Source of the DNA: Malassezia japonica
Taxonomy: Eukaryota; Basidiomycota; Malasseziomycetes; Malasseziales; Malasseziaceae
Reading direction: 5' to 3'
Length of the DNA stretch: 64,000 bases
Assembly (NCBI RefSeq): GCF_029542785.1
Contig: NC_083375.1
Location: 372,001-436,000 of the forward strand
A program made the translations under genes and the position numbers. The notes below the pieces were generated by a model. It had not been told where the DNA came from. It ran no database searches and worked only from the letters and a program-made list of their open reading frames with translations. Every line of letters begins with the position of its first letter. Within the stretch, counting starts at the first letter, position 1. Positions 1 to 64,000 of this stretch are shown in pieces.

Positions 1-2
1 GC

Positions 3-164
3 CACTGGTTCGCCAGCGACAGTGCGCCGCCTGATGCGCGCTTCTTTCGCCCGTTGCTACGCGTCCTGCGGCGTACGGCACTCCCGCACGACCCCGCGCT
101 CGTGCGCGTGCTGGCCGACATGGCAGTGCTTGGCTTGGAGCCAGGCCCATACCCTAGTACGTAG
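3..164 (+). CDS. 3' end of an unidentified protein (partial)
   Basis: An open frame enters from the left edge and stops at TAG 162-164, giving the last 53 codons of a protein. The visible tail is Arg/Leu-rich with a helical stretch (LVRVLADMAVLGLEPGP) loosely like the end of a pentatricopeptide-type helical repeat, but that resemblance is too weak to name a family. It converges on the SH3-domain gene, whose stop codon lies 17 bp downstream on the other strand, which fits the tight convergent packing seen throughout the window. The start and any introns lie outside the window. Confidence 0.45.
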   Translation, partial: HWFASDSAPPDARFFRPLLRVLRRTALPHDPALVRVLADMAVLGLEPGPYPST

Positions 165-181
165 GAGGATGCGCTACAACT

Positions 182-625
182 CTACAGTTTTTGCAAGTAG
201 GCCCCGGGAACCAGACCCCGTTTTGTGGGCTCGTCCAGGCGCTGGGCAAGGACCCAGCCCCCGTCAATGTCACGGAGGACGTGCAGCTGCGTGCCGCTCG
301 CGACGCTCAGCTCGTTGCTGGACTCGGCACGAAAGTCGTACATCGCAATAAATAGAGGCGGCGCGTCAGACGCTGCTTTCAAGGAGGGGAGAACGGACCC
401 GCGTCCGTCGCGGCGCTCGTCACCGTCGTCAAACGCAAAGTCGCGGATGTGCATTACGCCGCGCTGCGCCAGTTCGAGCGTGAGTGACTCGGTATTGCCC
501 GGCGCGCGGGGAGACAGTGCGGCAGTGATGGATGTAGGCCCTTGTAATGTGCTTGCAGAGTTTTCAGGGCTCTCCACAAGCTGGGTGCCGAGCGAGCCAG
601 ATCCCGCGTCTGTCAACACGGACAT
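182..625 (-). CDS. Small SH3-domain adaptor protein (Skb5/Nbp2-like)
   Basis: This 147-residue protein has a Ser/Thr-rich first 85 residues and one C-terminal SH3 domain (about 90-147). The domain shows the ALYDF-type motif (AMYDF, 94-98), the acidic RT loop (AESSNELSV), the conserved Trp124 (DGGWVLAQ) and the closing GLVPGAYL. Length and layout match Schizosaccharomyces Skb5 and yeast Nbp2, adaptors that bind PAK kinases and MAPK-pathway phosphatases through SH3 contacts; that role is inferred from family. I chose ATG 625. The frame stays open upstream but has no other nearby ATG, and I found no clear upstream exon. An unrecognised first exon remains possible. Confidence 0.72.
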   Translation of the reverse strand: MSVLTDAGSGSLGTQLVESPENSASTLQGPTSITAALSPRAPGNTESLTLELAQRGVMHIRDFAFDDGDERRDGRGSVLPSLKAASDAPPLFIAMYDFRAESSNELSVASGTQLHVLRDIDGGWVLAQRLDEPTKRGLVPGAYLQKL

Positions 626-1008
626 GCTGCGCACCCAGCCACGGTTGTAGAACAAATGAAGAGTTTCCACCTCCACATGGGTTACCCCAGGCGGCGCTGG
701 CGGTGCGTGAGGAGGGTGTGATCGATAGAGGAGATAGACAGGCAGAAAGGCTAGGCAACTATGAAAGACGACCGGACAGCATGTCGTCCGCCGCCAGGCG
801 CCGCGCCGCGCGCGGAACCACGACGACTATCACGTGGTGCGGACGTGCGAGCCTCCACGTCATGGCCATCGTGTGGACCTTTCAGGGGGCGCTTGCGGCC
901 GCCGAAGGTGGCGAGCCACATGCGCCTGTAGCATGCACACTCGCGCATGCGAGTGCAGAGATCCGCCGTACAGCGGCGGCAGCAGCCAAGCACGTCCGCG
1001 TCACTCCG
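626..1008. other. Divergent intergenic region between SH3 and ZZ genes
   Basis: This 383-bp spacer separates two divergent start codons. The ZZ gene's frame is open across it and contains an in-frame ATG at 781, so part may be coding or 5' UTR. The translation here is basic and low in complexity and resembles non-coding GC-rich DNA. I see no RNA gene or repeat. Confidence 0.4.
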
Positions 1009-3013: not shown

Positions 3014-4434
3014 ATGTTGCCGATTGCGAACCTGCTGGTCAGTGTCGGGGGCAGCTTTTTGTTCGTGCGGGGCTCGTTCCTGGCGCGCGACCTGGTCAAT
3101 CGCTATGTGTCTCAGCCCTACATGGTAGGTCCTTTCGCTAATGCAGGACGAAATCTTCCATGTTCCCCAGGCCGAGCGAATCTGCCGCGGGGTGATGGAG
3201 TGGGATCCCAAGATTACCACGCCGGCGGGCCTGTACTATGTGCCGGTGCTCTACCAGCGCATTGCGCCGCTCATTGGGCTTCCTTCGAGTTGTGAGGACA
3301 TTACGACGCTCGAGTGGCTGCGCTCGGTCTCGTTCGTGTGCATGATTCTCTTTTGCGGCGTGATCATGGCCAGCATCACCAGGAACCAGACCAGCATGTC
3401 GGTGTATGCGCCGCTGTACCGCTCGCTGGTGACGCTTGCAGTGGTTTCGCTGCCTCCGATGTATTTCTTTGGCTTTCTGTACTACACAGACATGCTGAGC
3501 ACCTTTCTCGTCTTTCTCGCACTGACCTTCTCTCAGATGGAGGAGCACTTTACCGCATCGCTGCTCGGCATGCTGGCCATGACGGTGCGCCAGAACAACG
3601 TGGTGTGGGTCGCATTTATGATCGGGCAGGCGATGCTCGCGGAGCTGCGCCGGCACGCGCCGGGCCTGGCATGGTCGCGTACGCCGCCGCTTGGTCTCCT
3701 GCTCAAAAAGAGTGTGTGGGAAGACCTCGGGGGAATCGAGCTGCCGTACATTCCCGCCATCTTTGGCTTTGTCGGTTTCGTGCTCTGGAATCAGGGCAGC
3801 CTCGCGCTGGGCGACAAGAGCAACCACCAGGTCACCTTTCACCTCCCCCAGCTCGGCTACTTTTTCGCGTTTGCGCTCTTTTTTGGGTGGCCCGCGCTGG
3901 TGCCGCACATGCGCCTGCGCATCCGCCGCAAGCAGGTGCTCATCTTTGCCGCGCTGACCGCGCTGGGCCTAGTCGCAGTGCACTTTTTCACGGTGGTGCA
4001 CCCCTTTTTGCTGGCAGACAATCGTCACTACACCTTTTACGTGTGGCGCCGCATTGTCGACGTGCGCCCGTGGGCGCGCTACGCGCTCGTCCCGGTCTAT
4101 GTCGCAAGCGCCATGCTCTGGATCTCGGCACTTGGTACGTACCTGCGCTTACCCAGCCAAAACGCGGTGCGCGTTCTGGATTGCGGGCTTTGTCGGGGCG
4201 ACGGCGCTTGCCGTGGTTCCCACGCCGCTGATTGAGCCGCGGTACTTTGTGGTACCGTACATCATCATGCGCCTCGAAGTGGCGCGCGCAACGACTGTCC
4301 GGCCGAGGGTGCTGGCGCTAATCGCCGTCGAGGTGCTATGGAATGCGGCGTTGAATGCGGAAACGATCTATGTCTTCTGTAAGCGGCCATTCTCTTGGGC
4401 CCATGAATTAGGCATCCAGCGGTTTATGTGGTAA
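3014..4434 (+). CDS. ALG10: Dolichyl-P-Glc alpha-1,2-glucosyltransferase (Alg10/Die2)
   Basis: Exons 3014-3124, 3147-4134 and 4157-4434 give 458 residues; both introns are 22 nt. Alg10 adds the terminal alpha-1,2 glucose to the dolichol-linked oligosaccharide in the ER lumen, completing the glycan recognised by oligosaccharyltransferase. The family signature near the N-terminus, YMDEIFHVPQA followed by WDPKITTPAGLY, is recovered only when the first 22-nt intron is removed. Removing the second joins the last multi-pass segment to EPRYFVVPYI, the conserved C-terminal motif. The protein is a polytopic membrane protein throughout. Its stop codon TAA directly touches the stop of the convergent hydrolase gene (TAATTA, 4432-4437). 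Confidence 0.95.
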
Positions 4435-5467
4435 TTAGACACGTCCAGCACGCTTCCCACGCTCCTCCTCGTGGGCCTTGCGAACGAGCTCGACCGAGGC
4501 ATCGTAGGCCGTCTCGCGCCATTTGATCGACTCCTCGCAGTTGGCGAGCTCGTCAAAAGCGTGCGATTCGCCCGGGACCTGCACAAACTCGACGTTTGCC
4601 TTTTGCTTCTCCGAGCCCTTAGCCATGACCATCTTGTAAAAGTCGTTCGAGTCCTCAAACATCACGTCGCAGCGACCGGCGCAGAGGAGGATGTAGTCGG
4701 GGTAGCGCTCGATCGGAAGGTAGAGCACACTGACTCTGGGGTCCGAGGGGGAGAGGTGCAGCGGAATGTACGATTGGAAGAACGTCGCAAAGACCCACGG
4801 AATCAGGTGCACACCGCTGCGGCTCGATTCCTTCGGCTCGGGGTGGGAGCGGATGCCCCTCGAAGCACCCGGGGAGGTGGCGTCGATCGGAGCGTAGAAC
4901 GAGATCACCGCCTTGACCACCTCGCGGCCGAGGTTGTTCGCCGTCGAGAGACACAGGTTGCCGCCCGCGCTGAAGCCGCTCATCGTGATCATGTCGAGGT
5001 CAAAGCGCTTCGGCTGCGTTTGGACCCAGGTAACGCAATCCTCGATGTCGCGCGGCTGGAATGGTAAGGGGTACTCGGGCGCCTTGCGGTAATCCGTATC
5101 GATCACAACGCACTTGAGCTTCGACGCAATCTTGTAGCAGAACCAACGCGAGTTACCAAAGAACGCATAGACGGCTGCGTTAGTGCGACAACATACTAAA
5201 TCCAGAGCCGTGTACATTCACGTGCACAGGCGAAGGGCCGGGAGGCAGATCCTTTGGCGTGTAGACGTATGCAGTGATGGTACGTCCTGGATCGCGCGAA
5301 GGGAACTGGATCCGCTCCACCGTGACGTCATCGCCCACCTGAGGACGGAGGTGGTCCGAGTTCCTCACATCCAGGATGGCCATCACACGAAGGAAGTACA
5401 CCTTCAGCAATAGCCAAAAGTAGTGAAAACTATAGGCATGGTGCTCCTGCTGTGCCGGAGGGGACAT
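4435..5467 (-). CDS. Alpha/beta-hydrolase (HSL-type esterase/lipase), copy 1
   Basis: Exons 5467-5197 and 5174-4435 encode 336 residues; a 22-nt intron interrupts the sequence just after the oxyanion-hole region HVNVHGSGF. The catalytic nucleophile lies in GFSAGG (around residue 156), the acid in the CAGRCDVMFED region and the histidine in ESHAFDEL, the layout of hormone-sensitive-lipase/Abhydrolase_3 enzymes. An N-terminal hydrophobic stretch (FHYFWLLLKVYFL) suggests a membrane anchor, as in fungal steryl-acetyl hydrolases, and not secretion. Substrate is unknown. ATG 5467 was chosen because the paralog downstream begins at the equivalent place. It is one of three tandem family members, the outermost of which is decayed. 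Confidence 0.88.
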
Positions 5468-5555
5468 TGTGGTTAAAGATGCGGAGTTCGCGGCCTTGGC
5501 GCAACCAGGGGGCGTGGGTCGAGCGAAGGGTAATTTACGACTCGTGCTTACAAAT

Positions 5556-7314: not shown

Positions 7315-7957
7315 ATGTCATCACGCGTTTCGCTGCGGGTGTACGATGGCGAGGGCATGTTGCCCGACATTGTGCGGCTGATTGAAACGCAGCTCAGGTG
7401 CGTTGCGACGCTCACCCAGCGAACCCTACAACATCTATACCTACCGCTACTTTCTGCACCAATGGTACGTTGCACGACTGACCCAGGCCCCAGCTTTGTT
7501 TTCTTGTGCGTATTTTTTCTCACACAGGCCTACATGGACGACGCGGAAAAGGGAACGGTGCCAGTCGGCGTCATTGTCAACAAGCTCGACCGGCATCTGC
7601 GCGGCGCACGGATGTACCGCGGCTACATTGCGATGCTGAGTGTCGATCCCGAATGGCGGGGCCACGGAATCGGTACGCTGCCCTCCTTCTTACCCAGGCG
7701 CGCAGCTCGTCCAGACCGCCGTAGACGCCATGGTCCAGCGAGGCGCCCAGGAAATTGTGCTCGAGACGGAAGTGGACAATGCAGCGGCGCTGCGGCTCTA
7801 CGAGCGCCTCGGCTTTTTGCGCGAAAAGCGCCTCTTTCGCTTCTACCTCAACGGAAAAGACTCGTTCCGGCTCGTCCTACCGGTTCCTGCGCAGCGGCCA
7901 CAGCCAGCAGTCATGCCGCCCCCGCGGCGCTTAATTCCATCCGATACCATTCTCTAG
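7315..7957 (+). CDS. NAA30: NatC N-alpha-acetyltransferase catalytic subunit (Naa30/Mak3)
   Basis: Five exons: 7315-7397, 7420-7464, 7487-7505, 7528-7672 and 7698-7957 give 183 residues; introns are 22, 22, 22 and 25 nt. Naa30 acetylates nascent proteins starting Met-Leu/Ile/Phe. Conserved pieces fall on successive exons: [13 protein letters not shown], then PQLCFL on a 19-nt microexon, then [21 protein letters not shown] and the acetyl-CoA loop RGHGIGAQLV, which spans the last intron, and finally [17 protein letters not shown] and [16 protein letters not shown]. Removing every intron is required to keep the GNAT fold in one frame. Converges on VMA21 with 9 bp between the stop codons. Confidence 0.95.
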
Positions 7958-7966
7958 CGTACATCT

Positions 7967-8289
7967 CTACTGGCTCTTCTTCTCGGCCACACGAGCCTTG
8001 GTTCCGTCGTCTTCCAAGCAGGCTACCGCAATGTAGCCCGCCAAAACCAGGTTCGCAACCAGCGCCGCAAGACCACCTGCATACACCGAGTCGCCTGCGT
8101 CAGCCGATGCACCTACCACCCAGCCAGCGGTCCTTTGCGACGTAGTACGCGGTGATCGGCGCGACGAACAGTGCAATGCTAAACAGCGCAAGCTTATAGT
8201 AGACGCCACTGCATTAGCCACGCAACCTACCGCGCAGGATCGGGGCCGCGCGGCGCGACACGCGACGGCGTCACCTCAATCGACGCCAT
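7967..8289 (-). CDS. VMA21: V-ATPase assembly factor Vma21
   Basis: Exons 8289-8231, 8208-8117 and 8094-7967 encode 92 residues with two 22-nt introns. Two membrane spans are evident (KLALFSIALFVAPITAYYVA and YAGGLAALVANLVLAGYIAV), ending ACLEDDG, the typical Vma21 pattern; the protein chaperones assembly of the V0 sector in the ER. The C-terminal EKKSQ is lysine-rich as in ER-retrieved homologues. The start codon is 49 bp from the start of the divergent CWF19-like gene, so both share one tiny promoter. Confidence 0.92.
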
Positions 8290-8338: not shown

Positions 8339-10239
8339 ATGGCAGCACGCAAAGTGTACGTGCACCGACTGACGCAGGCTGGTCATCGGACCGGTGGACG
8401 GACAGATCCGCGAGCTTGTCGAAAAGGTCGGCGCGATCCAGGCGAAGCATGGGCCGTTTGCCGCTGCATTTTTCGTCGGCGATGTGTTTGACGAGGACGA
8501 CGAGCAGGCCCAAGCACTGCTGGACGGGCGCCTGACACGTACGTAGCGTTGCTGACGCAGTACCGATCCCGAGCTATTTTTACCAGGGGACGCGTGCGCT
8601 CCCTGAGTTTGTGCGCGCGCGCCTCGGCGAGCCGGCCGACGGCCGTGTGCAGCTCGCAACGAACTTGTACTACCTCGGCCACGCAGGCATTGTCGACGCC
8701 GAGGGCCTGCGTGTCGCATTCCTTGGCGGACAGGGTACAGATGCGCGAGGCGACGGCGCACCGCTGCCGCAGTTTGATGACCTCGACACGCCCCAAAAGT
8801 CCGCACAGGCCCTGCAGGCCTTGCTTGCGGACCCCGCGCTGGCGCTCGGCACGGCGCCGCCGCCGCCCAACAGCGAGGCAGAGAGTCTGCAAGAGGCGCG
8901 GGCGCACCTTGCAGCCATGTCGCAGTATGCGGAGCGCCTTGCCGAAGACGCAGAGCGCCTCGCACACCGCAAGCCGATCGACTTTTTGTTCTGCAATGCA
9001 TGGCCCAAGGGCATCGAGCAGCTCTCCAAGAACGCACTGCCTGACGAGCACGCATCGTCGTGGGGCCTGCGCAGCATTGCGCGTCTCGCCGAGGCCGCAC
9101 GGCCTCGCTACCTCTTCTCTGCCGCACCGCGTCCCGCCGAAGCAGAGAGCCGCTCGCTAACGCTTGATCCCGAGACGCTGGAATGTGGCGTGTTTTGGGA
9201 GCGCGAGCCGTACGAGAACCCGCCATTTGCGGCGCTGCCCGCGCCGGAAATCCCCCCCCTGACGCGCTTCCTCTCGCTGGCACGTCTCGCCAACGCACGC
9301 AAAGCACGCTGGTTTATGGCGCTGCAAGTCGTTCCTGGCGACGAGCTCTCGGCGACGCATACACCGTCGGCGAGCATCCGCCCGTCGAACCTCACGCCGT
9401 GCCCCTTTTTCGAGGCGGCGCCGCCAAAGCGCCGCGCCCAAGGCATGGACGCGGTGCGCTTCGACAGCGCGCCCGCGCCCAGCCAAAAGCGGCGCAAGAA
9501 AGGACGCCAGGCAAAAGAGGTGATGCAGGTCGGCCCCGAAAACTGCTGGTTCTGCCTGAGCAACCCCCGCCTGGAAAAGCACCTGGTGGTCACGGTGGGC
9601 GAGGAGTGCTATATGGCGCTCCCCAAAGGGCAGGTCCCCGTGTCGTCCGACGAGTCGGCGCTTGTGCCTGGCGGCGGCCACGTCCTGCTTGTGCCGATCG
9701 CGCATATTGCGACGCCGTACGCGTCCGAGGCGTCGAGCGGCGCGCTGCGTGCCGAGACGGACGCGTACCGCCAGGCGCTTGCTGCGTGCTATGCGTCGTA
9801 CGGCGCTGTGCCGGTGGCATGGGAGGTCGTGCGTCGCTCGAATACCCGTGCTGGGCATACGCAGATGCAGGTCGTGCCTGTCGCTCAAGCGCAGCTCGAC
9901 GGCGCCGAGGCCTTTTTCCGCGAGGCCGCCGAGGCCGAAGGGCTCGCGTTTGAAGGGGACGAGGTGGCGGCAGCGTTTGACGATCTGTCCTCGCCGCTGC
10001 TCACGGCCAAGGACCGCGAGGACTACTGCTGGATCGACTTGAACGGCAAGCGCCTGCTGCTCCTGCTGCGTGGCGAGCGCTTCAACCTGCAGTTCCCCCG
10101 CGAGACGCTCACGACCTACCTCGGGATGCCCGAGCGTGCCGAGTGGAAGTCGTGTGCGCGCCCCGAGGAAGTCGAGGCGGCAGAGTGCGACGAGTTCAAA
10201 GAGGCCTTTGCCGACTTTGGGGCTGGTATTGGCGAATAG
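8339..10239 (+). CDS. CWF19L1/Drn1-like lariat debranching-associated protein
   Basis: Exons 8339-8355 (17 nt), 8378-8538 and 8561-10239 encode 618 residues; both introns are 22 nt. The N-terminus reads KVLVIGPVDGQ and IQAKHGPFAAAFFVGD, the metallophosphoesterase-like start of CWF19L1/Drn1. The C-terminal half has the CwfJ domains: ENCWFCLSNP, the HIT-like GGGHVLLVPIAHIAT and a second CwfJ part ending in WIDLNGKRLLLL. Homologues bind the debranching enzyme Dbr1 and help intron turnover, which is notable in a genome with such small lariats. Converges on condensin YCS4 with 7 bp between stops. Confidence 0.88.
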
Positions 10240-13947: not shown

Positions 13948-14767
13948 ATGGTACGTGCCCCGACTGACGCAGGATCGGCAGGTGAACGCGCCGCCGGAGG
14001 TGCGTCGTGTAATCGACTTTCTGCGGACCAAGTCCGGGATGAAAGTGCGTCCCGGCGTGCTGAACGGCCAACGTGCGGACTACTTTAAGGGCAGCGCGGC
14101 GATCAAGGCGGTGCTTTCGCCCGAGTATGCCAAGCTCAAGGGCGTCCCCAAGGTTACGAGCGAGGAGGAGGCCGAGAAGATGCTGCACCAGACGCTCCCG
14201 TATGCCTTCTTTCTGCGTGTGGAGCGCGGCGAGAAGCCCGGCAAGGACCAGGGCGACCGCCGCCCCCTCCAGGTGAACCAGATGCAGCTCTTTGAGAAGG
14301 ACATGTACTACGCGTGGTTCTACGAGGGCTCGCAGCTCATGATGAAGCTCGCGGGTCTCGGCATGATTGTCGTGATGCTCGCTGCGGTCATGTTCCCGCT
14401 GTGGCCGCGCGTGATGCGCCTTGGCGTGTGGTACTTGAGCATGGTCATCCTGGGGCTGTTTGGCCTGCTGATGGTCATTGCCGTGCTCCGCCTCATCTTT
14501 TGGGTGTTTTCCATCGTGGCCTTCCCGCCCGGCATCTGGATCTTCCCGAACCTGTTTGCCGACGTCGGCGTGATCGAGTCGTTTATCCCGCTCTGGGCGT
14601 GGGACGTGCCGCCGCCCAAGCCCAAGGCCAAGAAGGCCAAGAAGGCCAAGAAGTCGAAGCGCGCCGACGCCGCGGCGCCCGACGCCGCGCCGGACGCTGC
14701 GGCGGAGCCCGTGGAAGAGAACGCACCGGCCCACGGCCTTGAATCCTCCATCTCCGATCTGAACTAG
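13948..14767 (+). CDS. SEC62: Protein translocation component Sec62
   Basis: The first coding exon is only the ATG (13948-13950); after a 22-nt intron, exon 13973-14767 starts Asp-Arg-Gln and continues PPEVRRVIDFLRTK, giving 265 residues. Sec62 is an ER membrane protein that works with Sec63 in post-translational translocation. Visible features are the N-terminal cytosolic domain (VLNGQRADYFKG), two adjacent membrane spans (around MIVVMLAAVMFPLWPRVM and LLMVIAVLRLIFWVF), the conserved PPGIWIFPNLFADVGVIESF segment, and a Lys/Ala-rich acidic-ended cytosolic tail. Converges on ALG6 with 2 bp between stop codons. Confidence 0.93.
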
Positions 14768-47655: not shown

Positions 47656-48108
47656 CTATTCATCTGCACGCAAAATGCTAAAAACGAGAGCAGAAGCATC
47701 GCTAAGCCGGGCGCGTTGCTCAAACGTATTGCGTGTCTGCGCCCGCAGCTCGCTGGGCGACGTCGCAGCGGCGCTCAGGGGGATGCCTGCCAACCCTTTG
47801 TCGCGTAGAAAAGTTTGCAGCGCTTCGAGTTTTGAGTCGAAATCGTCAAGTGCGTCGCTCGCATTGCCATCATTCAAGAGCGCGTACAGACTAGATGAGT
47901 GAGGGGGGACGTACACCTTCTCGAGCATCGCATCACCGGCCTGCCGCGTCGCGGGCAGGTGCGTCGTCTCGAGCTCCGCCAGGAGGCGTTCCAGCGCAGC
48001 GAGCGTATGTGCCTCTTGCTTCGGGCGCGCTTGCAGCGCGGCGCCGGCCGGGGACACGCTCACGTCGCCCGCCGCGTCCGGCACCGAGGCGGGGGGCGCA
48101 GAGGCCAT
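47656..48108 (-). CDS. Small hypothetical helical protein
   Basis: Intronless, 150 residues from ATG 48108. I do not recognise the family. The first 30 residues are Ala/Pro-rich; the rest is predicted helical with Leu-rich stretches (LAALERLLAELETTHLP, FDSKLEALQTFLRDKG, TFEQRARLSDASALVFSIL), as seen in small kinetochore, Mediator or tethering subunits. No signal peptide or membrane span. Position argues that it is real: it is wedged between RIB7, whose stop touches its own, and a divergent gene 32 bp from its start. Confidence 0.6.
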   Translation of the reverse strand: MASAPPASVPDAAGDVSVSPAGAALQARPKQEAHTLAALERLLAELETTHLPATRQAGDAMLEKVYVPPHSSSLYALLNDGNASDALDDFDSKLEALQTFLRDKGLAGIPLSAAATSPSELRAQTRNTFEQRARLSDASALVFSILRADE

Positions 48109-48140: not shown

Positions 48141-48600
48141 ATGAGCGAAGCGAGCCAAGCGCCCAGCGGGCGTGCCTCGCTGCCGACGCTGCCGGATCTG
48201 CGTCAGGAGCAGTTCTTCCTCTCGACCGTGCGCCAGTACATTGACGTGGAGGATACGGAGGAGAAAGGAGAGCTGGTGCCCATCACGGAGCGCACCACGC
48301 CGTGGCACCACACCAAGAACATCCGATGGTAGGTTCTCGTGCTAACGCAGGGGGGCGTTTTTGTACAGTCTGTTTATGGAGCAGTTTGTATCACCGCTAT
48401 GGCAAGGGATGCTATGGGGCCTCGGTGGCGTGGCGCTGGCGCACGCGCGCCAGGCGATGGCCATTGCACGTGCCCACCGTATGCGCTCGCCGACCGCCCA
48501 GGCCAAGACGCTCGCAAAGGAGGCGGAAAAGACAGCGCCTACGCGCCAGCTCTTTTCGTCGTGGATCGCGCGGCTGGGCCTGTCGCGCCTTTTTCTATGA
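48141..48600 (+). CDS. Small conserved-looking membrane protein, unknown function
   Basis: Exons 48141-48328 and 48351-48600 (22-nt intron) encode 145 residues. An N-terminal soluble part with LPTLPDLRQEQFFLSTVRQY leads through the splice site to one hydrophobic segment (SPLWQGMLWGLGGVALAHA) and a basic C-terminus (ARAHRMRSPTAQAKTLAK). The LPDLRxEQ-FL start and single late membrane span resemble small fungal membrane proteins of unknown function; I cannot name it. Its stop lies 4 bp from the convergent CHCH gene, and its start 32 bp from the divergent hypothetical gene. Confidence 0.68.
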
Positions 48601-48604: not shown

Positions 48605-48947
48605 CTACTGGGAGGGGCCTTGCGCCGCCTTTACACGCTCCGTACACTCCCATAGAGCACGCAGCTTCGGCGTGCATGCATGCGCCAGCTCGTCATCACC
48701 CATCTTGGCATTCTGCTGGAGGCACAGGTCGTACGCGCGGATCACCGGGCCGCACTGGTCCTTGACCGCCTGCAGCATCGGCACGGCACGGGCTGCACAC
48801 TGCGCAAGCGACTGCTGCGCCTCGGCACACTTGCTACCGTCACCTTTGTTTGCGACAATACACCGCTCAAACGAGGCTGCGTCAGAAGCGCGACCTACCC
48901 AGCTCCGCGGCGCAGTTTTTGCCCACCGTCTCCATTGCGTTTTCCAT
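48605..48947 (-). CDS. Double twin-CX9C protein (CHCHD5-like)
   Basis: Exons 48947-48899 and 48876-48605 (22-nt intron) encode 106 residues. Four CX9C motifs are visible, two pairs: CAAELASFERC (made by splicing) with CAEAQQSLAQC, and CGPVIRAYDLC with CTPKLRALWEC. This is the CHCHD5 layout of small intermembrane-space proteins oxidised by Mia40/Erv1. Function of CHCHD5 homologues is poorly known. ERV2, a different sulfhydryl oxidase, is 13 kb away. Divergent start 47 bp from the isomerase gene. Confidence 0.88.
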
Positions 48948-49825: not shown

Positions 49826-50843
49826 TCGACAAGCGCCATATGGCGTGCAACGTGCATGCGATGGACACGCGCAAAGATCCCTGCATGGTCCTTAAGCATG
49901 CTCGGAGTGCCATCTGGACCCGGCTTTTGCAGCTGGTGCCACAGCTCGTAGTACGAGAGCATGTCTTGTGCGACACTGGCAATAAGAGGTAGTGATACAT
50001 TGAGGCCCGCCAAGAAGGAGAGGAGTGCGGGGGGCGGCGGCTGCGTCGCACCGCTCGCAAGCGCGGCCTGCACATGCTCAGCACTCGTTGGCAGCAGGAC
50101 CAATGCAAGGTACAGGCATACGATCGCGAGGATGTACGGGGGCTGCTGCAGAGGGAGGTCGGTGCGGTACAGGTCATTCGCGACGAACCAGGCCATTTGC
50201 AGCAGCTGGTTCTCTCGGGGCTTGGCATCGTCGTCCAGTGCGGATATTGGCGTTGACGGCGATCTGCTCCGCTTCATCGGAATGGTGGGCGTGCGCTCGG
50301 GCATGAGCACAGAACTGCACGCTTCGCACAGGCGCTGCAGCACATGGTAGGGATGGAAGACGATGAGGTCAAACTCGAGCTCTTCCAGCAGGTAAAACTC
50401 CATCTCGGCCACGACGGGGATCGAGTTCGGGAGCTCCGTGTACCCCATTTCCGAAAACATCCTCGACGCTTCCGCACAGAGCGTTCGGATCCGCACCGCG
50501 GCTTCCTCGACCTTTGCTGCGAGGTACACGCACGTCGTAAGCACCAGGAAGCAGTCCGTACTTGCGAACGTATTCTTGCTGTAAAAGCGCTGAAAGTAGA
50601 CACTCGCCGTGGCCACAATGCGCTGCCGCAGGTTCAAACGCTTGGAAAGCATGGCAATCGCTGCATCAGTACGACGACCTACCCTGAATGCACCACGTCG
50701 ATATCCCTGCGAGCTCAAACGAGTCGGCATATTTGCGGTCCTCATCGCGGATCGACTCGAGCACGGCACGGTCCAAGAGCCAAGAGTTGCTGCATCAGCC
50801 AAGCGACGTACCATTGCGTCGAGTGCCAGTAATTCGCGGCCAT
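49789..50843 (-). CDS. SSN8: Cyclin C (Ssn8/Srb11), Mediator kinase-module cyclin
   Basis: Exons 50843-50812, 50789-50683 and 50660-49789 encode 336 residues; both introns are 22 nt. The N-terminal signature MAANYWHSTQC is produced by the first splice, with the Cys codon split. The cyclin boxes follow: QRIVATASVYFQRFYSKNTF, VLTTCVYLAAKVEEA, LEELEFDLIVFHPYHVL and NDLYRTDLPLQQPPYILAI. Partners Cdk8 in the Mediator kinase module. The second half holds an insertion with SRSPSTP, a possible phosphosite. The 3' coding end overlaps the isomerase gene by 37 nt. Confidence 0.94.
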
Positions 50844-55173: not shown

Positions 55174-55622
55174 TTATACCTTCTTGTCCTCATCGTGGAA
55201 GGCCAGCGACACCGAGTTGACGCAGTGACGCTCGTCCGTCGGCGTAGGGAATCCTTCGCCGTAAAAGACGTGCCCGAGGTGGCCTTTGCAGTTGTGGCAG
55301 GTGATCTCTGTGCGTTTCTGCGTAAGCAGAGCGACGTACCATCCCGAACGAAAAATCGTCGTGGCGGTCGATCGCGCCGGGGATCGCATCGAAAAAGGCG
55401 GGCCAGCCGCAGCCGCTGTCAAACTTCGTCGCACTCTTGTACAGCGGCGCATCGCAGCCGGCACACGTGTACACGCCGGGCTCGTAGTGCTTGTTAAACT
55501 GGCCAGTACCGGCCATCTCGGTGCCTTTCTGGCGGAGCACACGGAACTGCGTGAGTCGCACGACCACTTACCTGCTCGGGGCTCAGCACCGCGCGCCATT
55601 CTTGGTCGGACTTGGTCGACAT
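55174..55622 (-). CDS. MXR2: Peptide methionine-R-sulfoxide reductase MsrB
   Basis: Exons 55622-55572, 55546-55340 and 55317-55174 encode 133 residues; introns are 25 and 22 nt. Complete SelR domain: [20 protein letters not shown], zinc Cys pair [20 protein letters not shown], second pair CHNC and the catalytic RHCVNSVSL. No targeting presequence is visible, suggesting a cytosolic enzyme. It reduces methionine-R-sulfoxide in proteins. Confidence 0.95.
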
Positions 55623-55950: not shown

Positions 55951-56204
55951 TCACTTGTTCTCGGATGACTTGCTGATCTCCTGCTGAGTCTCCTTCTCAG
56001 CAGACGACGCATCGTTCGCCTTGGACGACGCCGAGTCGTGCTCGGCGAGGGGGTGCTCCTGACCGGTATTGCGCTTAAAGTTTTCGAGATTTTGGGTGTA
56101 TTTGCTGGGTAAGTAGGCAGTACGTACGCTTGCAGGTTCTTGCCCTGCATGGCCAGACGCGCAAGCACGTCGTTCGTACCGGACGGGACGTTAGGGTCGC
56201 TCAT
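55951..56204 (-). CDS. Small hydrophilic protein, unknown function
   Basis: Exons 56204-56128 and 56104-55951 (23-nt intron) encode 76 residues. The protein is charged and Ser/Lys/Glu-rich, with RLAMQGKNLQAKYTQNLENF spanning the splice site and the tail KETQQEISKSSENK. No membrane span or domain recognised; it resembles small stress-induced hydrophilic proteins of fungi in composition only. Support comes from the canonical intron and divergent position 57 bp from SARAF. Confidence 0.6.
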
Positions 56205-56261: not shown

Positions 56262-57087
56262 ATGGCCATGGCATCCATGTGGGGCCGTGTGGCGGGGATC
56301 GCGCTGGTGCTGCTGTGCTTCTTTGCCGTGGACGTGAGCGCAAAGAAACCGGCTTATGAAAAAGTCCGCTTCGATGACATCCAGGCGCTGACCTTTTTCC
56401 GAGGCAAGGAGACGCTCGCGCGCCGGACGCATCCCATCCCGCAGCTGCGGTGCGAAGGCGAGCTGTGCTCCAAGTTCCAGCCGCGGGTCGTGCAGTGCGT
56501 CAGTCGCGGCGACGCACAGTGGAAGGTACGTAGCATGGCTCACACAGTGCGAGGCTGAACTGCCGAACTGGGCGAGCTTGGGCGCCGTAAAGGTGTCATG
56601 CGAAGGCTGGGACCGTGCAGACGACAAGTACGTCCTGCGTGGATCCTGCGGCCTGCGCTACGAGCTTGTCTCGTCTGCAAACAGCAGTGGGTCAGACTGG
56701 GCGTCGACGCTCTTCCTGATTGTCTTTTGGGCTTTCTTCGGCTACATTGTTCTGTGCTGCCTCTACGCCATCTTTGGGCCGCGCCCGGATACGCTCGGAA
56801 GCGCGCCAGGGCAAGGGCCGGATGCACCTCCGCCGCCGTACCCCGGACAAGGCAAGCCCGACTCGTGGCGCCCTGGCTTCTGGTCGGGCATGGGGCTCGG
56901 CGCGATCGCTGCGCGCCTCTTTGGCCCTGGACGCCAACGCACGGCCTACCCATACGGCCCGTCTTATGGAACCATGCCGCCGTCAGGTGCTCAAGACTAC
57001 TATTACGGACATAACCACGCCGCCGACGTCCCGTCGTCTTCCACGACGCACAGCAGTGCTGGATTCGGCGGCACAGAAAACCGCTAA
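56262..57087 (+). CDS. SARAF-family ER membrane protein (TMEM66-like)
   Basis: Exons 56262-56525 and 56548-57087 (22-nt intron) encode 267 residues. Signal peptide (VAGIALVLLCFFAVDVSA), luminal SARAF domain with VRFDDIQALTFFRGKETLA, PQLRCEGELC, VVQCVSRGDAQWKCEAEL (across the intron) and VSCEGWDRADDKYVLRGSC, one membrane span (STLFLIVFWAFFGYIVLCCL) and a Pro/Gly/Tyr-rich cytosolic tail. In animals SARAF restrains store-operated calcium entry; fungal function is unknown. Confidence 0.9.
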
Positions 57088-57140: not shown

Positions 57141-58843
57141 ATGGCACGGTCCCTACTCTGGACAGCGGCCGTAGCGGCCCTTGCTGCGGTCGTGTCTGTC
57201 CGCGCGACGCCCGCAAGCGAGTTCTCATATGAAGTGTTGAAGTCGACGACCTACGACATTGTCTTTGAGAACGAGACAGTGTCCAAGACAGACGCGCTGC
57301 AGCTGCTTCGGCACGAAGGCGCGACGGGCGTCGAAGTGCAACACTATATGCAAGATAGTTTCAACCTTACGTGGGGCGACCCTGCAAGGTATGAACTGTA
57401 CCGCGTAACACCACTCGAGAGCTATGTGTGCCGTTATCCTCCCCGTGAGGCGATCGACGCAGTAGAGACCAAGCGCAAGAGGCTTCTCACCCTGGCAGAC
57501 AAGCAGGCCATCCTGCAAAAAGGCCTCGAAGCGATTCAGGAGCGTAAAGGAAAATGTATCGTCAACGTGCGTGGCTATTTTGCCTATCACTTTTGCTTCA
57601 ACACAAGACTGCGCCAGCTGCCGACTACGACGTACGTTGCCAAGCTCCAGACGGCGACCTCGGGCGACGATCCCCAGCACGACGAGTACATCATGGGTGT
57701 ATGGCGCCCGGAAATGGATCAGGTGCCTGAAAAACAGCTGAATGGAGTGCAGGCGTTCGGCGATGTGGACAGCGGCACGGCCCTGCGCCCGGTCGTCGAA
57801 GCCGAGGATCGCAGTGGGATTTATACAGACCAGACGCTCTACTTGGCACAGACCTGGCGGGACGGCACAGTGTGTGATTTGAACGGGCTTCCGCGCAAAA
57901 CAGAGATTCGCGTATGTACCTCGACTCACCCAGTACTTTTGCGCCCCGGACGACATCGAGCGGATCGAGTCCATCTCGGAGCAGCGGACGTGCGACTAGT
58001 ACGTGGATTGACTGACGCAGCCTTGTGGACATTTATACGCCGAGCCTTTGCAACGAAACGGCTTTTGCACGTCTCGCAGAGGAGCCGGTGCACTTTATCC
58101 AGTGCCGTCTTATTACGCCGGACAGCGAAGAGCAAAAGACCAGCTACCTCAAATCAGTCAAGCGGCACAATCGCAAGCACCACCACGTCGTGGAGCCGGA
58201 GGCCAAGCCGGAGCTCGGCGAGGTCCCCGTCGATACGTACCCCGATGATGTGCCTCTGGATCTTGACGATGACATTCCCGAGTACAATGACGATGAAGAT
58301 GTCAAGTTCCTTGAGAAAATGACTGGGCAAGGCGAAAGCGGCCGTGAGCCTGATGCGCAAAACGATATCCTGCGAGAGTTTTTGGCTGTATTGCAAGAGC
58401 GTACCGATGAGCTGGAAGAGAAAATTGTGGCAAAGATTCCCCAACAGGGCTTTGAATCACCTCACGAGGACCTTGACACGGAGATCACCAAGGCGGGTCA
58501 AGAAGCGCGCGAGGCGCTCGAGCTGCTCAAGAAGAGCATCGAGAGCATTGGGAAAAAGAACGACGCGCAGGAACTCCAACGATTGGCCAAAATTCAAGAT
58601 TGGGATATTGTTAAGGAGACCGAAGAGCTCAACGATGCCTTGCTTGGAATTAACGATCGATTGCTCCAACGTCAGGATAGCATTCAGCGCCAACTGGATG
58701 CGATCGAGGGCAAGGAGAGTAAATCTGACCCGTCTGAGACTACACCCACGACTATTGACAAGAAACAAGGCATAACGGACACCACCGCAAAGCCGGTCAA
58801 GAAGCAAGCCGCCCAGAAGTCTAGAGTCAAAGACGAATTGTAG
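57141..58843 (+). CDS. YOS9: ERAD lectin Yos9 (OS-9, MRH domain) with C-terminal KDEL
   Basis: Exons 57141-57911, 57934-57998 and 58021-58843 encode 552 residues; introns are 22 nt. Signal peptide MARSLLWTAAVAALAAVVSV (an upstream ATG at 57126 is in frame). The mannose-6-phosphate-receptor-homology domain includes YVCRYPP, KCIVNVRGYFAYHFCFN, the Trp-containing TLYLAQTWRDGTVCDL and EQRTCDYLVDIYTPSLC, whose last part is assembled by two splices. Yos9 delivers misfolded glycoproteins to the Hrd1 ligase. The C-terminal half is an acidic coiled coil and ends VKDEL, a classical ER retrieval signal. ALG6/ALG10 in the same window build the glycan it reads. Confidence 0.94.
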
Positions 58844-58892: not shown

Positions 58893-59688
58893 ATGGCGTG
58901 GCGCTGTTCGGGAAAGACGAATGCCGAGCTGATTGCCAACATGCAATCGGCGGGCCTTATTCATTCGCAGCGCGTAGCCGAGGTACGTTTCTCTTCTGAT
59001 AAAGGCCATGCTCCGCGTCGACCGTGCCAACTACGTCTTGCCGCGTGCGAAAGCAATGGCGTACGAGGACTCGCCCCAGTCGATTAGCTACAATGCTACT
59101 ATCTCGGCACCCCACATGCATGCGCATGTCGCCGAGCTTCTTCTTTCTCACTTGAAGCCTGGAAGCTCTGTGCTCGACGTGGGATCTGGTTCGGGCTACA
59201 TGTTGGCCGTTTTTCACCAACTGACCAAGACAGAGCCCAAGCGTGGTCATATTGTCGGCATCGAGCACATCCAGGGCCTGACCGACTTTAGTGTTGCGAA
59301 TATGCGCAATGACGGTCTCGCTGATGAGCTTCGCTCCAAGCGGATTGCCGTTGTGACGGGCGACGGTCGAAAAGGTATGTGGCGCGTCTTACCGCAGGGT
59401 ACGAAACCATGGGACCGTACCATGCGATCCACGTCGGCGCGGCCGCTTCGACCGTCCCTGATGCATTGGTCGAGCAGCTTGCGCGCCCGGGCCGCCTGAT
59501 CATTCCGGTCGACAACCCCAAAGGCAGCGGACAGTACGTTACATATTTTGACCTCTGGGAGCTCTGGCAGATTGACAAAGACACGGATGGCAAAGTTGTT
59601 CGAAAAAAGCTATTCGACGTTATGGTGCGTACATTTTCTGATACAGTATGTGCCTCTTACGGATGCTGCATCGCAATGGGAGCCATAG
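58893..59688 (+). CDS. Protein-L-isoaspartate O-methyltransferase
   Basis: Exons 58893-58982, 59005-59374, 59398-59624 and 59647-59688 encode 242 residues; introns are 22, 23 and 22 nt. The first acceptor is the unusual AAAG. PCMT methylates isoaspartyl residues to start repair of aged proteins. Motifs: NAELIANMQSAGLI, EAMLRVDRANYVLP, QSISYNATISAPHMHAH, SAM loop LDVGSGSGYMLAVF, GDGRKGYETMGPYHAIHVGA spanning intron 2, and VMYVPLTD spanning intron 3. Four same-strand genes (SARAF, YOS9, PCMT, RNH203) sit in a row here. Confidence 0.95.
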
Positions 59689-60642: not shown

Positions 60643-61598
60643 TTAGTAGTTGTTACCGTAGCCACCCTGGCCACCGCCGTAGCCGCCCTGCTGGCCACCG
60701 CCGTAACCGCCCTGGCTACCACCGTAGCCGCCCTGGCTACCACCGTAGCCGCCGGACGAGCCACCGTAGCTGTCCGAGCCGCCGAAGCCGCCGCCGCCGC
60801 CGCCGCCAAGACGGTCGCTGCCGCCGAAGCCACCGCCGCCGCCGCCGCCGAGGCGGTCGTTACCACCACCGTAGCCGCCGGAGCCGCCGAAGCTGTCCGA
60901 GTTGCCGCCGGAGCCGCCGAAGCTGTCCGAGTTGCCGCCGTAGCCGCCGGACGAGCCGCCGAGGCCACCAGACGAGCCGCCGTAGCTGTCGGAGCCGCCG
61001 CCGAAGCCGCCGCCGCCGTGGTGCTTGTTGTGGTGGCCGCCGGAGCCACCGAAGCCGCCGGACGAGCCGCCGAAGCTGTCGCTGTTACCACCGTAGCCAC
61101 CAGACGAGCCGCCGTAGCCACCGGACGAGCCGCCGAGGCCGCCGGACGAGCCGCCGTAGCTGTCGGAGCCGCCGCCGAAGCCGCCGCCGCCGTGGTGCTT
61201 GTTGTGGTGGCCGCCGGAGCCACCGAGGCCGCCGGACGAGCCGCCGAAGCTGTCGCTGTTACCACCGTAGCCGCCGGACGAGCCGCCGAGGCCACCGGAC
61301 GAACCACCGTAACCGCCCGACGAGCCGCCGAAGCTGTCGCTGTTGCCGCCGTAGCCGCCCTGGTTACCACCAAAGCCGCCCTGGTCGCCGGCGTAGTTCT
61401 GCTGGTTGCCGCCGAAACCGCCCTGGTTGCCGCCCTGGTTGCCGCCCTGGTTGCCACCAAGGACCTTGTCGGTCACCTTGTGCATGAGCTTGTCGGCGAG
61501 GCCGCCTAACGGTTAGCGTACTTCTCTTTCGGATACGTACCACCCTGCTGCTGGCCCTGCTGGCCGCCACCACCGGTCAAGTTGTTGAGAAGATCCAT
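60643..61598 (-). CDS. Glycine-rich repeat protein (GGY/GGS repeats)
   Basis: Exons 61598-61541 and 61505-60643 (35-nt intron) encode 306 residues. A short N-terminal part (MDLLNNLTGGGGQQGQQQ and LADKLMHKVTDKVLGG) precedes about 230 residues of GGYGGSSGG/GGNSDSFGG repeats. No signal peptide, so it is not an obvious wall protein; the composition resembles intrinsically disordered, phase-separating proteins. Two HHNKHH clusters could bind metal. A TATATAA 43 bp upstream suggests strong expression. Function unknown. Confidence 0.85.
60700..61440 (-). repeat. Nested coding repeats in the glycine-rich gene
   Basis: Heptad-like GG-x-GG units (about 21 nt) fill this region, and a higher-order unit of 58 codons (174 nt) that includes HHNKHHGGGGFGGGSDSYGG is tandemly duplicated, copies lying roughly between 60960 and 61310. 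Near-identical copies imply recent duplication or gene conversion. Confidence 0.85.
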
Positions 61599-61940
61599 TG
61601 TTGTATGAGTTGTTGGGGTACCTCTATCTGCTTCGGCCCACTTTATATAACCTGCGTTGTCCCCGTGCGCGCTCCGTCCATGCACCGACGTTTCGCCGCC
61701 GCCCGTCCCACAGATCTGCACGGCACGATCAGGAAGGGCACGGACCAGATTTCTGCATGATTATATAAAACACTGCCTCAACTACAACGGCGGGCCAAAT
61801 TAAGCCGCGGGGATGGGCCGATTAAGCGGTGGCGCATGCGCAATCACGTTATGGGAAACGCCGTGAGAAAAGCACCCAATTGGCACCCGTTCGCAACTGG
61901 CCCGTGCTGTGCGTCATATGGGGCTACGCAGGCACCGTCG
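61599..61940. other. Promoter region of the glycine-rich gene
   Basis: 342 bp between two minus-strand genes. It holds TATATAA about 43 bp before the start codon and a second TATATAA on the plus strand near 61763. No gene was recognised. Confidence 0.4.
61644..61650 (-). promoter_or_regulatory. TATA box of the glycine-rich gene
   Basis: TTATATA (minus strand, within TTATATAAAG) lies about 43-50 bp upstream of the ATG at 61598, a typical distance for a short 5' UTR. Confidence 0.55.
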
Positions 61941-62719
61941 CTATCCAATGGGCATGATATGCGCTTCGCCCGTCGCGTCCGCTGGGCGGATCGAAGCGAG
62001 GGGTTCGACAGGTTCAGGGCCACAACCGCAATCGTACGTGGAGTTGAGTTGGCGGCAGTCAAACTCTGGCTTGCCCAGCCGCTCGTTCACGGCATTGTGC
62101 GCATTGCAGAGCCAGAGCGCTGCATTTTTGCGCGAGCCGACTTGCGGGGGCAGGTCCTTCAGTAGCTGCTGGAAATGCGACGCACAGTCGCCGCAGGGGT
62201 ATAGCAAGGAAAAAAGGTGGAAGAATTGGCGCAGGTCCTCCGACTGCTGTTTTGTGGGCTTCTCGGGGAACCGGAGCGTCATGGTGTGCAAAAAGTGCCA
62301 CGTAGCGCGGCCGAGCGCGGCCCTTAGGTCAGTATGATGACGTACTTGGCGGTAGCATTGGCCATTTTGTGTGCGTAGGCGCCTTGCACCTCGGGCTCGT
62401 CGAGCACCGTGGGCGCCGTGGGCGCAGCGGTGGGTGCCGCAAACTGCGTGCTGGTGTGCACCGCCGCACCGGGGGTAGTCGTGTGGCCCATGTTCCACAG
62501 GTTCGAGAACCCCTTCATAACATTGGAATAGACGCCGGGCCCGTGGCCTTGCTGAATCTGCGCCGGTTTCTTGCCATGTGCGTATGAGTCCTCCGAGAAC
62601 CACTCGCCGGACTTGGGGTCACGAACAAAACCATTCTGCTGTTGTGACAGGTAAACAAACGACGGAATGACTACCAAGAGCACGGCAAGGATAAAGAACC
62701 GCAGAAATCGTGACGCCAT
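61941..62719 (-). CDS. ERV2: FAD-linked sulfhydryl oxidase Erv2-like
   Basis: Exons 62719-62346 and 62322-61941 (23-nt intron with a TAAG acceptor) encode 251 residues. N-terminal signal anchor (LRFFILAVLLVVIPSFVYL), a linker, then the Erv/ALR domain: TAKAALGRATWHFLHTM (formed across the intron), FPEKPTKQQSEDLRQFF, active-site LYPCGDCASHF and the CNAHNAVNERLGKPEFDC pair. Membrane-anchored ER form, which passes disulfides to client proteins using FAD and oxygen. The C-terminus carries an extra CGCG. Confidence 0.93.
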
Positions 62720-62773
62720 CAATCTGTTCGCCGCAGATGTTGTGGCGCTGGACAAATGTGGAGGCTCCACTCG

Positions 62774-64000
62774 CTACGAGAAACGCGGCAGGGTCTGAGC
62801 GACGGCCTGGGCGCTGTACAGCGTGTGGACGGCGGCCTGTTGCCCTGCGTCTATCAACGAGAGAAGATCGTCACGACTCCATTCCATCTTAGGTTGGCGG
62901 TGCGATCGGGCACTGATTCCGGCGAGAATGGCGCCGGTAAAGGTATCGCCTGCCCCTGTGCTGTTGTGTGGCTTGCTTGGATCCAAGGGAATCGGGGGAA
63001 TGTGGTATAAAGTGAGTGCGTCACTCGTACAGTGCGCAAGCAAGACACCATATGCACCGAGCTTGATGAACTGCGTGCGGACGAGCACCGACAAGATCTG
63101 CGCGTCCTGGACGATTTTTTCGGCTGCCGTTTGGGGTATACCGTCCAGGAGCGAACGGGGAGCAGGCGGAGCTGTGCCGGATACCGGTACCTGCTCTGCC
63201 ATTGCAGCCAGTTCATACACGTTTGGCGTTGCGAACTGGACCTGCAGATCATGAGGGAGCAGTGCCTCGACCAGGCGGACCGACTTGGCGACAGACGTTG
63301 GCTCAAAGAGCACAGGAACATTTGCTTCATCACCGAGAGCAGCCAGGCGCGCGAGCGCAGCAGGCGCCATATTGGCATCTGCTGCCACGATGGCCAACTT
63401 TTCCGTAGCATGTGCCTTCCACACCCGCTCGATCGTCTCGCCCGAGAAAGCCGCTTCGACAATCTGCATATCGGCGATGCCCGTTTCGAGATCCCCGGCA
63501 GCGTCCAGCAAAAGATTGCACACGGCCGTACGCCCGCCCGGCACATGCACGAGCGCATCGCATCGCAGTGCTCTCCGCTCCATTTCAGCCTGCATGTACT
63601 GGCCGAGCGCATCGTCGGGGTTGCACGGTGCGGCGAGGACCACGGCATCTGGCCGCGGCGCCATGGCGTGCGCCGCGCGCGCCACGTTCTGCGCTACGCC
63701 GCCCAGCGAAAAACTCACTTGGCCCGGCGCGGTCGACCGAAGCGCTGGTTCCGACGTGCACTGCGCCGTAATGTCGACGGCACTGCAGCCCATCACGAGG
63801 ATCTCGCAAGCTGCCTGGTGCGCCTACTATCGTGATTAGCAAAACAACATACCTCGAGCGTGGCGCCGCCATACTGCTTCGGCGCCTCGTCCATAGGCTC
63901 TTTGAGCACGGCACTCAGCTCCACGGCGCACTCGGCAGCGGTGCGTGCATTGTTCAGCATGAGACCAATGTTGCTCTTGACCGACTCTTTGGCGAGCTGC
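62774..64000 (-). CDS. Bifunctional pseudouridine-5'-phosphate glycosidase / pseudouridine kinase (partial)
   Basis: The window cuts the 5' part. Visible exons are 64000-63853 and 63823-62774, separated by a 29-nt intron (a 38-nt version using a later acceptor is also in frame). The first exon ends the glycosidase (SNIGLMLNNARTAAECAVEL). The rest, about 350 residues, is a PfkB kinase: VMGCSAVDIT, SLGGVAQNVARAAHAM at the start and the anion-hole GAGDTFTGAILAG. Fused IndA-PfkB proteins in fungi degrade pseudouridine. Substrate assignment follows from the fusion. Confidence 0.88.

Follow-up and report, generated by a model that had tools for sequence, protein, structure and literature searches.

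A predicted class of 22-nucleotide introns in the yeast Malassezia japonica

Very short spliceosomal introns are known from several eukaryotes. They are reported to measure 15-16 nucleotides (nt) in heterotrich ciliates, 16-17 nt in mikrocytids and 18-21 nt in nucleomorphs (PMC10245619), and the same paper, on mikrocytids, proposes the balance between deletion and a functional minimum to which our own analysis leads. Within the genus Malassezia, introns are called very short in a review (PMC7426719); those of M. restricta are given a mean of 37.2 and a median of 30 nt (PMC9241646), the annotation pipeline for that species used minimum intron lengths of 20 and 15 (PMC6473144), and the introns of M. 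globosa are given a mean of 76-79 nt (PMC4634964). Here we describe a class of predicted 22-nt introns in a 64,000-nt stretch of DNA from the skin yeast Malassezia japonica (C6:372001-436000 in a nine-contig, 8.43-Mb assembly of one genome), hereafter the window, in whose own numbering features are given. A preliminary description of the window had remarked on the nearness of these elements to ciliate and nucleomorph introns, and 22 nt does lie near the 15-16 and 18-21 nt reported for them (PMC10245619). The accessible passages of the open-licence literature contain no report of a 22-nt intron class in Malassezia; the genome and annotation papers of M. sympodialis could describe one. The 22-nt class in this fungus, the two length floors described below and a change in the first RNA recognition motif (RRM1) of U2AF65 in Malassezia seem, within the literature searched, to be new.

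Size, abundance and intron character of the 22-nt class

The loose pattern GTRNGN-N7-CTNAY-N-YAG fits 35 elements in the window, 30 of which were placed by the gene finder; the remaining five (starting at 7398, 7465, 7506, 13951 and 57999) are also genic on inspection. The finder predicted 48 window introns, from which curation removed four and to which it added five of 22 nt and one of 57 nt. Two of those removed were a 41-nt intron (49914-49954) without a branch motif and a 152-nt intron (30572-30723) that fuses two unrelated genes; a 63-nt intron (7465-7527) was reinterpreted as two 22-nt introns flanking a 19-nt exon, and a 31-nt intron (57990-58020) as one of 22 nt. The curated set of 50 comprises 35 introns of 22 nt, seven of 23, one of 24 and two of 25 nt, along with single introns of 30, 35, 57, 128 and 137 nt; the total may be too low, because the finder overlooks introns with a length that is a multiple of three, such as the 57-nt intron of Arp1. 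The dominance of 22 nt claimed in the preliminary description is thus retained, and its counts (37 of 57 introns at 22 nt, 8 at 23 and 3 at 25) are replaced.

Motif scans show the same peak. When the donor GTRNGT and the branch CT[AGT]AY were required and lengths of 16-60 nt allowed, the window yielded 28 matches of 22 nt, where 0.3 were expected, six of 23 nt and no more than two of any other length. A frame-blind scan (branch CTNAY, acceptor YAG, unweighted for branch-to-end spacing) was run on 264 kb, consisting of the window and C1:100001-300000. It gave 0, 0, 100, 25, 8, 7, 6, 3 and 3 matches at 20 to 28 nt, with fewer than one expected at each of these lengths (0.75 at 22 nt), and three matches against about two expected at 14-19 nt. 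Lengths had been proposed for genome-wide comparison, which we carried out as motif scans: the strict pattern GTANGTN7CTRAYNCAG has 1570 matches in the whole genome (806 and 764 on the two strands) against one (0 and 1) for the same pattern reversed, and at 15-21 nt, where GTACGT was combined with CTNAYNCAG, there is no excess, with five matches and five in the reversed control. The 264 kb hold 60 strict-pattern and 107 loose-pattern matches, so that a fair extrapolation (1570 x 107/60) suggests about 2,800 introns of 22 nt genome-wide; strict matches are denser in the window (22 per 64 kb) than in the genome (1570 per 8434 kb). Given splice signals without a length preference, the finder predicted 157 introns in 155 genes; 88 of these introns measure 22 nt and 26 measure 23 nt. 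The dominant length therefore lies below 25 nt in both the curated (35/50) and the automatic (88/157) set, and the predicted 22-nt class is confirmed at the level of sequence.

Three tests with few assumptions in common bear on the nature of the elements. In a frame test scoring 120 bases on each side, 79 of 100 motif candidates favour removal of the 22 nt, nine the uninterrupted frame and 12 the third frame; for 1624 22-mers of the form GT-N18-AG lacking the motif, the corresponding numbers are 300, 1024 and 300. The finder, when given GT..AG alone, predicted 75 introns with a peak at 22 nt (17, and 8 at 23 nt), and in another such run all 14 of the 22-nt introns ended in CTNAY-N-YAG. Finally, removal restores the host protein at 18 short junctions of nine genes (Arp1, PCMT, RIB7, MsrB, cyclin C, NAA30, ALG10, the DWNN gene and the CX9C gene), 14 of them of 22 nt, two of 23 and two of 25; 16 are ungapped in residue alignments and two rest on equal profile coordinates. 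Extra residues in homologous proteins had been named beforehand as the outcome that would speak against introns, and at these junctions the related proteins agree instead with the spliced reading. GID8 also agrees with its relative (PDB 7nsc) across both of its long junctions. These genes were picked for having known relatives and cover a minority of the window introns; Pfam was applied to 10 of 45 window gene models. The ALG10 junctions were compared with related proteins because ALG10 has no PDB match. The third NAA30 junction, both deoxyhypusine hydroxylase junctions, VMA21 and Vta1 stand outside the 18. The Vta1 model was trimmed to its first 355 residues for Pfam because it fused two genes, and its match, 139 residues against 141 profile positions, is two residues off over four junctions and hence near-colinear only. 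With a GT donor, a branch-adenosine motif and an AG acceptor in order, the elements look like ordinary U2-type spliceosomal introns.

Intron anatomy and the two length floors

In 150 introns with a branch motif no more than 60 nt from the 3' end, the shortest spacing of donor G and branch A is 16 nt, a value that 99 of them share, and the shortest spacing of branch A and final intron base is 5 nt, which 120 of them show. In a 22-nt intron the branch A is accordingly base 17, which places it 16 bases after the donor G and 5 before the last intron base, in agreement with the preliminary description. The acceptor score used with splice signals is biased toward the latter spacing, so the floor of 5 rests on the unweighted scan, which has no matches one base shorter. 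Because both segments have floors, the 22-nt minimum is the sum of two minima (16 + 1 + 5); because there is a tail above 22 nt, in which both segments are lengthened and which extends to 36 nt, neither segment is fixed in length. No pyrimidine tract is present between the branch A and the AG, with four bases to the final G in 120 of the 150 introns.

We consider it probable that U2-type introns of M. japonica have shrunk onto these two floors, with donor G and branch A no less than 16 nt apart and the last intron base no less than 5 nt beyond the A. Deletion pressure would drive introns shorter, and the spliceosome would reject those below the floors, which would leave a wall at 22 nt, a tail above it and most introns sitting on both floors. 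The cause of both floors would be steric, taking the branch A to be where its motif places it.

The consensus of 106 loose-pattern matches suggests another origin for the minimum. The donor is GTACGT, with C at +4 in 72 introns, G in 19, T in 13 and A in two; G occurs at +8 in 58, a pyrimidine at +9 in 92 and a purine at +13 in 77, +19 is T in a single intron, the acceptor is CAG in 98, and the other positions are set by the pattern. Of the seven bases previously described as variable, positions 10-12 indeed have little base preference, and +8, +9 and +13 do not vary freely. We infer that the biases at +9 and +13 fit extended pairing to U6 and U2. The floor might then be set by the recognition sequences, the donor (paired to U6 up to +9) and the branch helix (from +13) filling the intron and 22 nt being the sum of signals that do not overlap. 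The +9 pyrimidine would face a G of U6 CGAUACAGAG and the +13 purine a U of U2 GUAGUA, and it has been argued that a longer recognition sequence gives a longer minimum (PMC10245619); however, the near-neutral positions 10-12 leave about three bases that no signal explains, and the preference for G at +8 is unaccounted for by U6 pairing. We regard this origin as possible and, on the whole, doubtful.

The sharp peak had initially been taken to imply a fixed geometry in the spliceosome. On such a reading the spliceosome would measure introns, with 22 nt as a preferred length and not a lower limit. All 100 of the 22-nt motif matches do share one branch-to-end spacing, and the donor-to-A distance of exactly 16 in 99 of 150 introns agrees with this, but the peak is one-sided: a wall at 22 nt is followed by a smooth tail (100, 25, 8, 7, 6, 3 and 3 matches at 22-28 nt) with both segments lengthened, as expected of a minimum and not of a ruler. 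Nor are nearly all introns confined to two or three lengths, since the tail reaches 36 nt and protein continuity points to introns of 57, 128 and 137 nt, so that a measuring spliceosome appears improbable. That the elements are not introns at all, being skipped in translation or produced by assembly errors, is scarcely credible given the GT..CTNAY..CAG signals common to the 22-nt and the 57-137 nt introns, the presence of spliceosome genes, the 1570 strict matches against one in the control and the occurrence of all three phases.

Retention of a 22-nt intron shifts the reading frame by arithmetic, as noted earlier, with no sign of selection for this effect. Phases are even among 144 introns shorter than 60 nt (50/47/47), and we rejected selection that would act on phase or disfavour lengths that are multiples of three, eight matches of 24 nt being present and the phases of 22-nt introns being 31/34/23. 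By successive fifths of the coding sequence, the 144 introns number 53, 36, 23, 17 and 15.

Spliceosome components and divergence of U2AF65

The assembly encodes a U2 small nuclear RNA (snRNA) with the canonical GTAGTA, a U6 snRNA with the canonical ACAGAG, and SF1, Slu7 and Prp18, each of these proteins above its family cut-off. Slu7 and Prp18 are needed mainly where branch and acceptor lie far apart, and their presence is consistent with the longer introns. The U2AF65 gene lies at C9:360833-365026; its protein is 100% identical to MJAP1_004289 over 487 amino acids and is named after its closest solved relatives, which are U2AF 65 kDa. Separately, the window itself holds a weak, RRM-like match to the U2AF large-subunit family at 42281-42499 (+).

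We compared U2AF65 with 111 homologues, taking the top 18 (P0241-P0258) as Malassezia-like: six are named, and 12 unnamed ones were assigned by list rank and at least 50% identity to a named row, a level that P0297, a fragment without RRM1 outside the group, also reaches (53%). Eleven of the 93 other rows lack the RRM1 column, leaving 82. The positions tested were the second residue of RNP2 (Y/F) and the fifth of RNP1 (F), aromatics that in RRM1 presumably stack on uridines. Both are kept in RRM1 by none of the 18 Malassezia-like proteins versus 78 of the 82 others, including Pseudozyma, Moesziomyces and Tilletia (the rows without both are P0326, P0329, P0340 and P0350). RNP2 of RRM1 reads LDVSGI in M. 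japonica, VLVGNV in M. obtusa, LVVSNV in M. yamatoensis, LRVFNV in M. vespertilionis, LQVGNV in M. sp. CBS 17886 and LQIDSV in M. cuniculi, and LYVGNI or similar elsewhere; human RRM1 has LYVGNI and NFAFLEF. At the fifth RNP1 position, six of the 18, besides those that keep F, have W or Y. The same two positions in RRM2 are kept in 18 of 18 Malassezia-like proteins and in 79 of the 82 others. From these alignments, we read the change as a probable loss of pyrimidine reading by U2AF65 in Malassezia, chiefly through RRM1, which fits introns whose four bases between branch A and final G leave no room for a pyrimidine tract.

Without such room, the branch helix and whichever CAG lies nearest would decide the 3' end. 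U2AF65 may be retained mainly through protein contacts, which would account for the decay in Malassezia of RNA-contact aromatics in RRM1 and of one in RRM2. More tentatively, at rather less than an even chance, a tract-free choice of the 3' site, with U2AF65 as a protein adaptor whose RRM1 no longer works and whose RRM2 is weakened, and with the spacing of branch A and AG fixed at about 5 nt, could have released the collapse to 22 nt, the physical minimum of an otherwise standard spliceosome. The same shift may be paired with altered reading of the donor, which is suspected because +4 is C and almost never A and because the assembly lacks the canonical 5' end of U1. A change in the U1 5' end would be remarkable, since ACUUACC is reported as invariant among the U1 candidates of a Saccharomycotina survey (PMC10581693).

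Several observations weigh against the shrinkage of introns onto two floors with a loss of pyrimidine reading. In the frame test, 21 of the 100 motif candidates fit another frame better than removal (nine uninterrupted, 12 third frame). Slu7 and Prp18 are kept, and in the 57-nt intron of Arp1 about 18 nt seem to separate the branch motif from the end, so longer spacings are still tolerated. The match of U2AF65 to its family scores 224 bits, under the curated cut-off of 310. Taken singly, the RNP2 tyrosine of RRM1 is kept in three of the 18 Malassezia-like proteins and the RNP1 phenylalanine in two. In RRM2, the third aromatic of RNP1 is lost in 14 of the 18 (to I, M, V or A), the residue being F or Y in 91 of the 93 other rows. 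The U2AF65 change also tracks the genus, though M. restricta and M. globosa are reported with longer introns, and the correlation between the RRM1 change and intron length has a single origin. U1 gave no Rfam match, which alone is no proof of absence, and its canonical 5' end ATACTTACCTG (an 11-mer) is absent from the whole assembly. Six ATACGTACCTG matches were considered as U1 candidates; by eye, four are intron donors on the opposite strand, and there was no match to U1 at E values up to 5. Of seven matches to a U1-loop pattern, the one examined looks coding.

Features of the window and comparison with known introns

The introns of the window are collected in Table 1. As read here, the NAA30 homologue has three 22-nt introns, one 25-nt intron and one 19-nt exon. 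Removal of the intron at 13951 puts its ATG in frame, by arithmetic, with the open reading frame at 14039.

Table 1. Predicted introns and one microexon of the window, with the evidence for each
Feature	Position	Strand	Evidence
22-nt intron, ALG10 homologue	3125..3146	+	between PYM and DE of an invariant PYMDE; ungapped in 6-row alignment
22-nt intron, ALG10 homologue	4135..4156	+	ungapped in 6-row alignment; ISALAKTR vs ISAIAKTH (M. psittaci P0123)
22-nt intron, alpha/beta hydrolase	5175..5196	-	gene finder; junction within Pfam Abhydrolase_3 stretch
22-nt intron, NAA30 homologue	7398..7419	+	ungapped vs PDB 7mx2
22-nt intron, NAA30 homologue	7465..7486	+	ungapped vs PDB 7mx2
19-nt microexon, NAA30 homologue, flanked by two 22-nt introns	7487..7505	+	rereading of 63-nt finder intron
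22-nt intron, NAA30 homologue	7506..7527	+	junction aligned; five-residue gap three residues later; 3' end less firm
25-nt intron, NAA30 homologue	7673..7697	+	ungapped vs PDB 7mx2
22-nt intron, VMA21 homologue	8095..8116	-	gene finder; Pfam match 8 residues shorter than profile
22-nt intron, VMA21 homologue	8209..8230	-	gene finder
22-nt intron, gene 8306-10239	8356..8377	+	gene finder
22-nt intron, gene 8306-10239	8539..8560	+	gene finder
22-nt intron immediately 3' of start codon, gene ending 14767	13951..13972	+	motif
23-nt intron, gene taken to be glucosyltransferase-like	15137..15159	-	gene finder
22-nt intron, Arp1 (centractin)	17724..17745	+	ungapped vs PDB 5nw4 and 7 relatives
23-nt intron, Arp1	17811..17833	+	ungapped
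22-nt intron, Arp1	18643..18664	+	ungapped
57-nt intron, Arp1 C-terminus	18856..18912	+	extra residues vs all 7 relatives if retained; missed by finder (divisible by 3)
22-nt intron, protein kinase	19681..19702	+	gene finder, with and without splice signals
30-nt intron, gene taken to be ubiquitin hydrolase-like	22570..22599	-	gene finder
22-nt intron, TIM21 homologue	26577..26598	+	gene finder, with and without splice signals
23-nt intron, deoxyhypusine hydroxylase	28938..28960	+	gene finder; PDB alignment gapped at junction
23-nt intron, TTGAC branch, deoxyhypusine hydroxylase	29479..29501	+	gene finder; junction at PDB alignment end
22-nt intron, Vta1 homologue	31388..31409	-	gene finder
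22-nt intron, Vta1 homologue	31486..31507	-	gene finder
22-nt intron, Vta1 homologue	31636..31657	-	gene finder
22-nt intron, Vta1 homologue	31753..31774	-	gene finder
137-nt intron, GID8 homologue	32396..32532	-	ungapped vs PDB 7nsc
128-nt intron, GID8 homologue	32729..32856	-	ungapped vs PDB 7nsc
22-nt intron, DWNN-domain (Mpe1-like) gene	33196..33217	+	74 residues = 74 DWNN profile positions over junction
22-nt intron, DWNN-domain gene	33555..33576	+	gene finder
22-nt intron, gene 34697-35651	35490..35511	-	gene finder
22-nt intron, lysine methyltransferase family	43511..43532	-	gene finder
22-nt intron, gene taken to be bZIP-like	44536..44557	+	gene finder
22-nt intron, riboflavin reductase (RIB7-like)	47023..47044	+	ungapped at junction vs PDB 9l1f
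22-nt intron, RIB7-like	47116..47137	+	ungapped at junction vs PDB 9l1f; gap five residues later
24-nt intron, gene 47656-48108	47891..47914	-	gene finder
22-nt intron, gene 48141-48600	48329..48350	+	gene finder
22-nt intron, CX9C protein	48877..48898	-	44 residues = 44 CX9C profile positions over junction
22-nt intron, cyclin C	50661..50682	-	ungapped vs PDB 5fgk
22-nt intron, cyclin C	50790..50811	-	ungapped vs PDB 5fgk
22-nt intron, MsrB	55318..55339	-	ungapped at junction vs PDB 6tr8
25-nt intron, MsrB	55547..55571	-	ungapped at junction vs PDB 6tr8
23-nt intron, small gene 55951-56204	56105..56127	-	gene finder
22-nt intron, gene 56262-57087	56526..56547	+	gene finder
22-nt intron, PRKCSH-domain (Yos9/OS-9-like) gene	57912..57933	+	gene finder
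22-nt intron, PRKCSH-domain (Yos9/OS-9-like) gene	57999..58020	+	motif; retains CDY residues lost in finder's 31-nt version
23-nt intron, isoaspartate methyltransferase (PCMT)	59375..59397	+	ungapped at junction vs PDB 1i1n
22-nt intron, isoaspartate methyltransferase (PCMT)	59625..59646	+	ungapped at junction vs PDB 1i1n
35-nt intron, glycine-rich repeat gene	61506..61540	-	gene finder
23-nt intron, Erv1/Alr family	62323..62345	-	gene finder

Other features of the window may be mentioned. Both long introns (137 and 128 nt) lie in one gene, GID8, amid mostly tiny introns; small nucleolar RNAs (snoRNAs) inside them were considered and rejected, with no Rfam match at E values up to 1 and fold z-scores of 0.27 and -0.96. 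A C/D snoRNA-like match to Afu_455 at 54365-54458 (+) has an E value of 0.022 and is under the gathering score, and Rfam at gathering thresholds gave no matches in the 200 kb of C1. Two adjacent genes on the minus strand at 4435-6512 resemble alpha/beta hydrolase paralogues, the first alone having been tested by Pfam, and the gene at 60643-61598 (-) encodes a glycine-rich protein of repeated GGYGGSSGG-like units.

Gene callers that overlook 22-nt introns break proteins. For example, the clustered database protein P0121 (7 members, 19 contigs) corresponds to the ALG10 open frame at 3141-4235: it starts within the first ALG10 intron and runs through the second into a frame-shifted tail. More broadly, the smallest donor-branch-acceptor distances would be readable from statistics and testable by mutation in a yeast with an estimated 2,800 or so introns of one size, which is also a natural case of a U2AF65 apparently stripped of much of the surface that binds RNA.

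Other Malassezia resemble M. japonica in having very short introns as a genus (PMC7426719); however, the averages reported for M. restricta and M. globosa are longer, and the accessible passages of these reports name no 22-nt class (PMC9241646, PMC4634964). The type B introns of Trichomonas vaginalis (about 23-25 nt) are likewise short, have the branch motif near the 3' end and occur beside a longer class (PMC12316389), but 24 of them are reported, compared with 1570 strict matches in M. japonica. Human SPF45-dependent introns share a truncated pyrimidine tract and weak U2AF65 binding, whereas the model intron is 56 nt long (PMC8363638). Chlorarachniophyte nucleomorphs (18-21 nt) and mikrocytids (16-17 nt) likewise have introns of extremely small and little-varying size, in their case in reduced genomes (PMC10245619); the nucleomorph is a remnant nucleus and the mikrocytid an intracellular parasite with a reduced spliceosome, whereas M. 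japonica is a yeast in which six of seven searched components were found, U1 being the exception. Heterotrich ciliates such as Stentor (15-16 nt) also combine an ultrashort, narrow intron class with retention of most spliceosomal proteins (PMC10245619, PMC9505925); M. japonica differs in that its predicted class is of 22 nt, has a tail of longer introns and occurs in a fungus.

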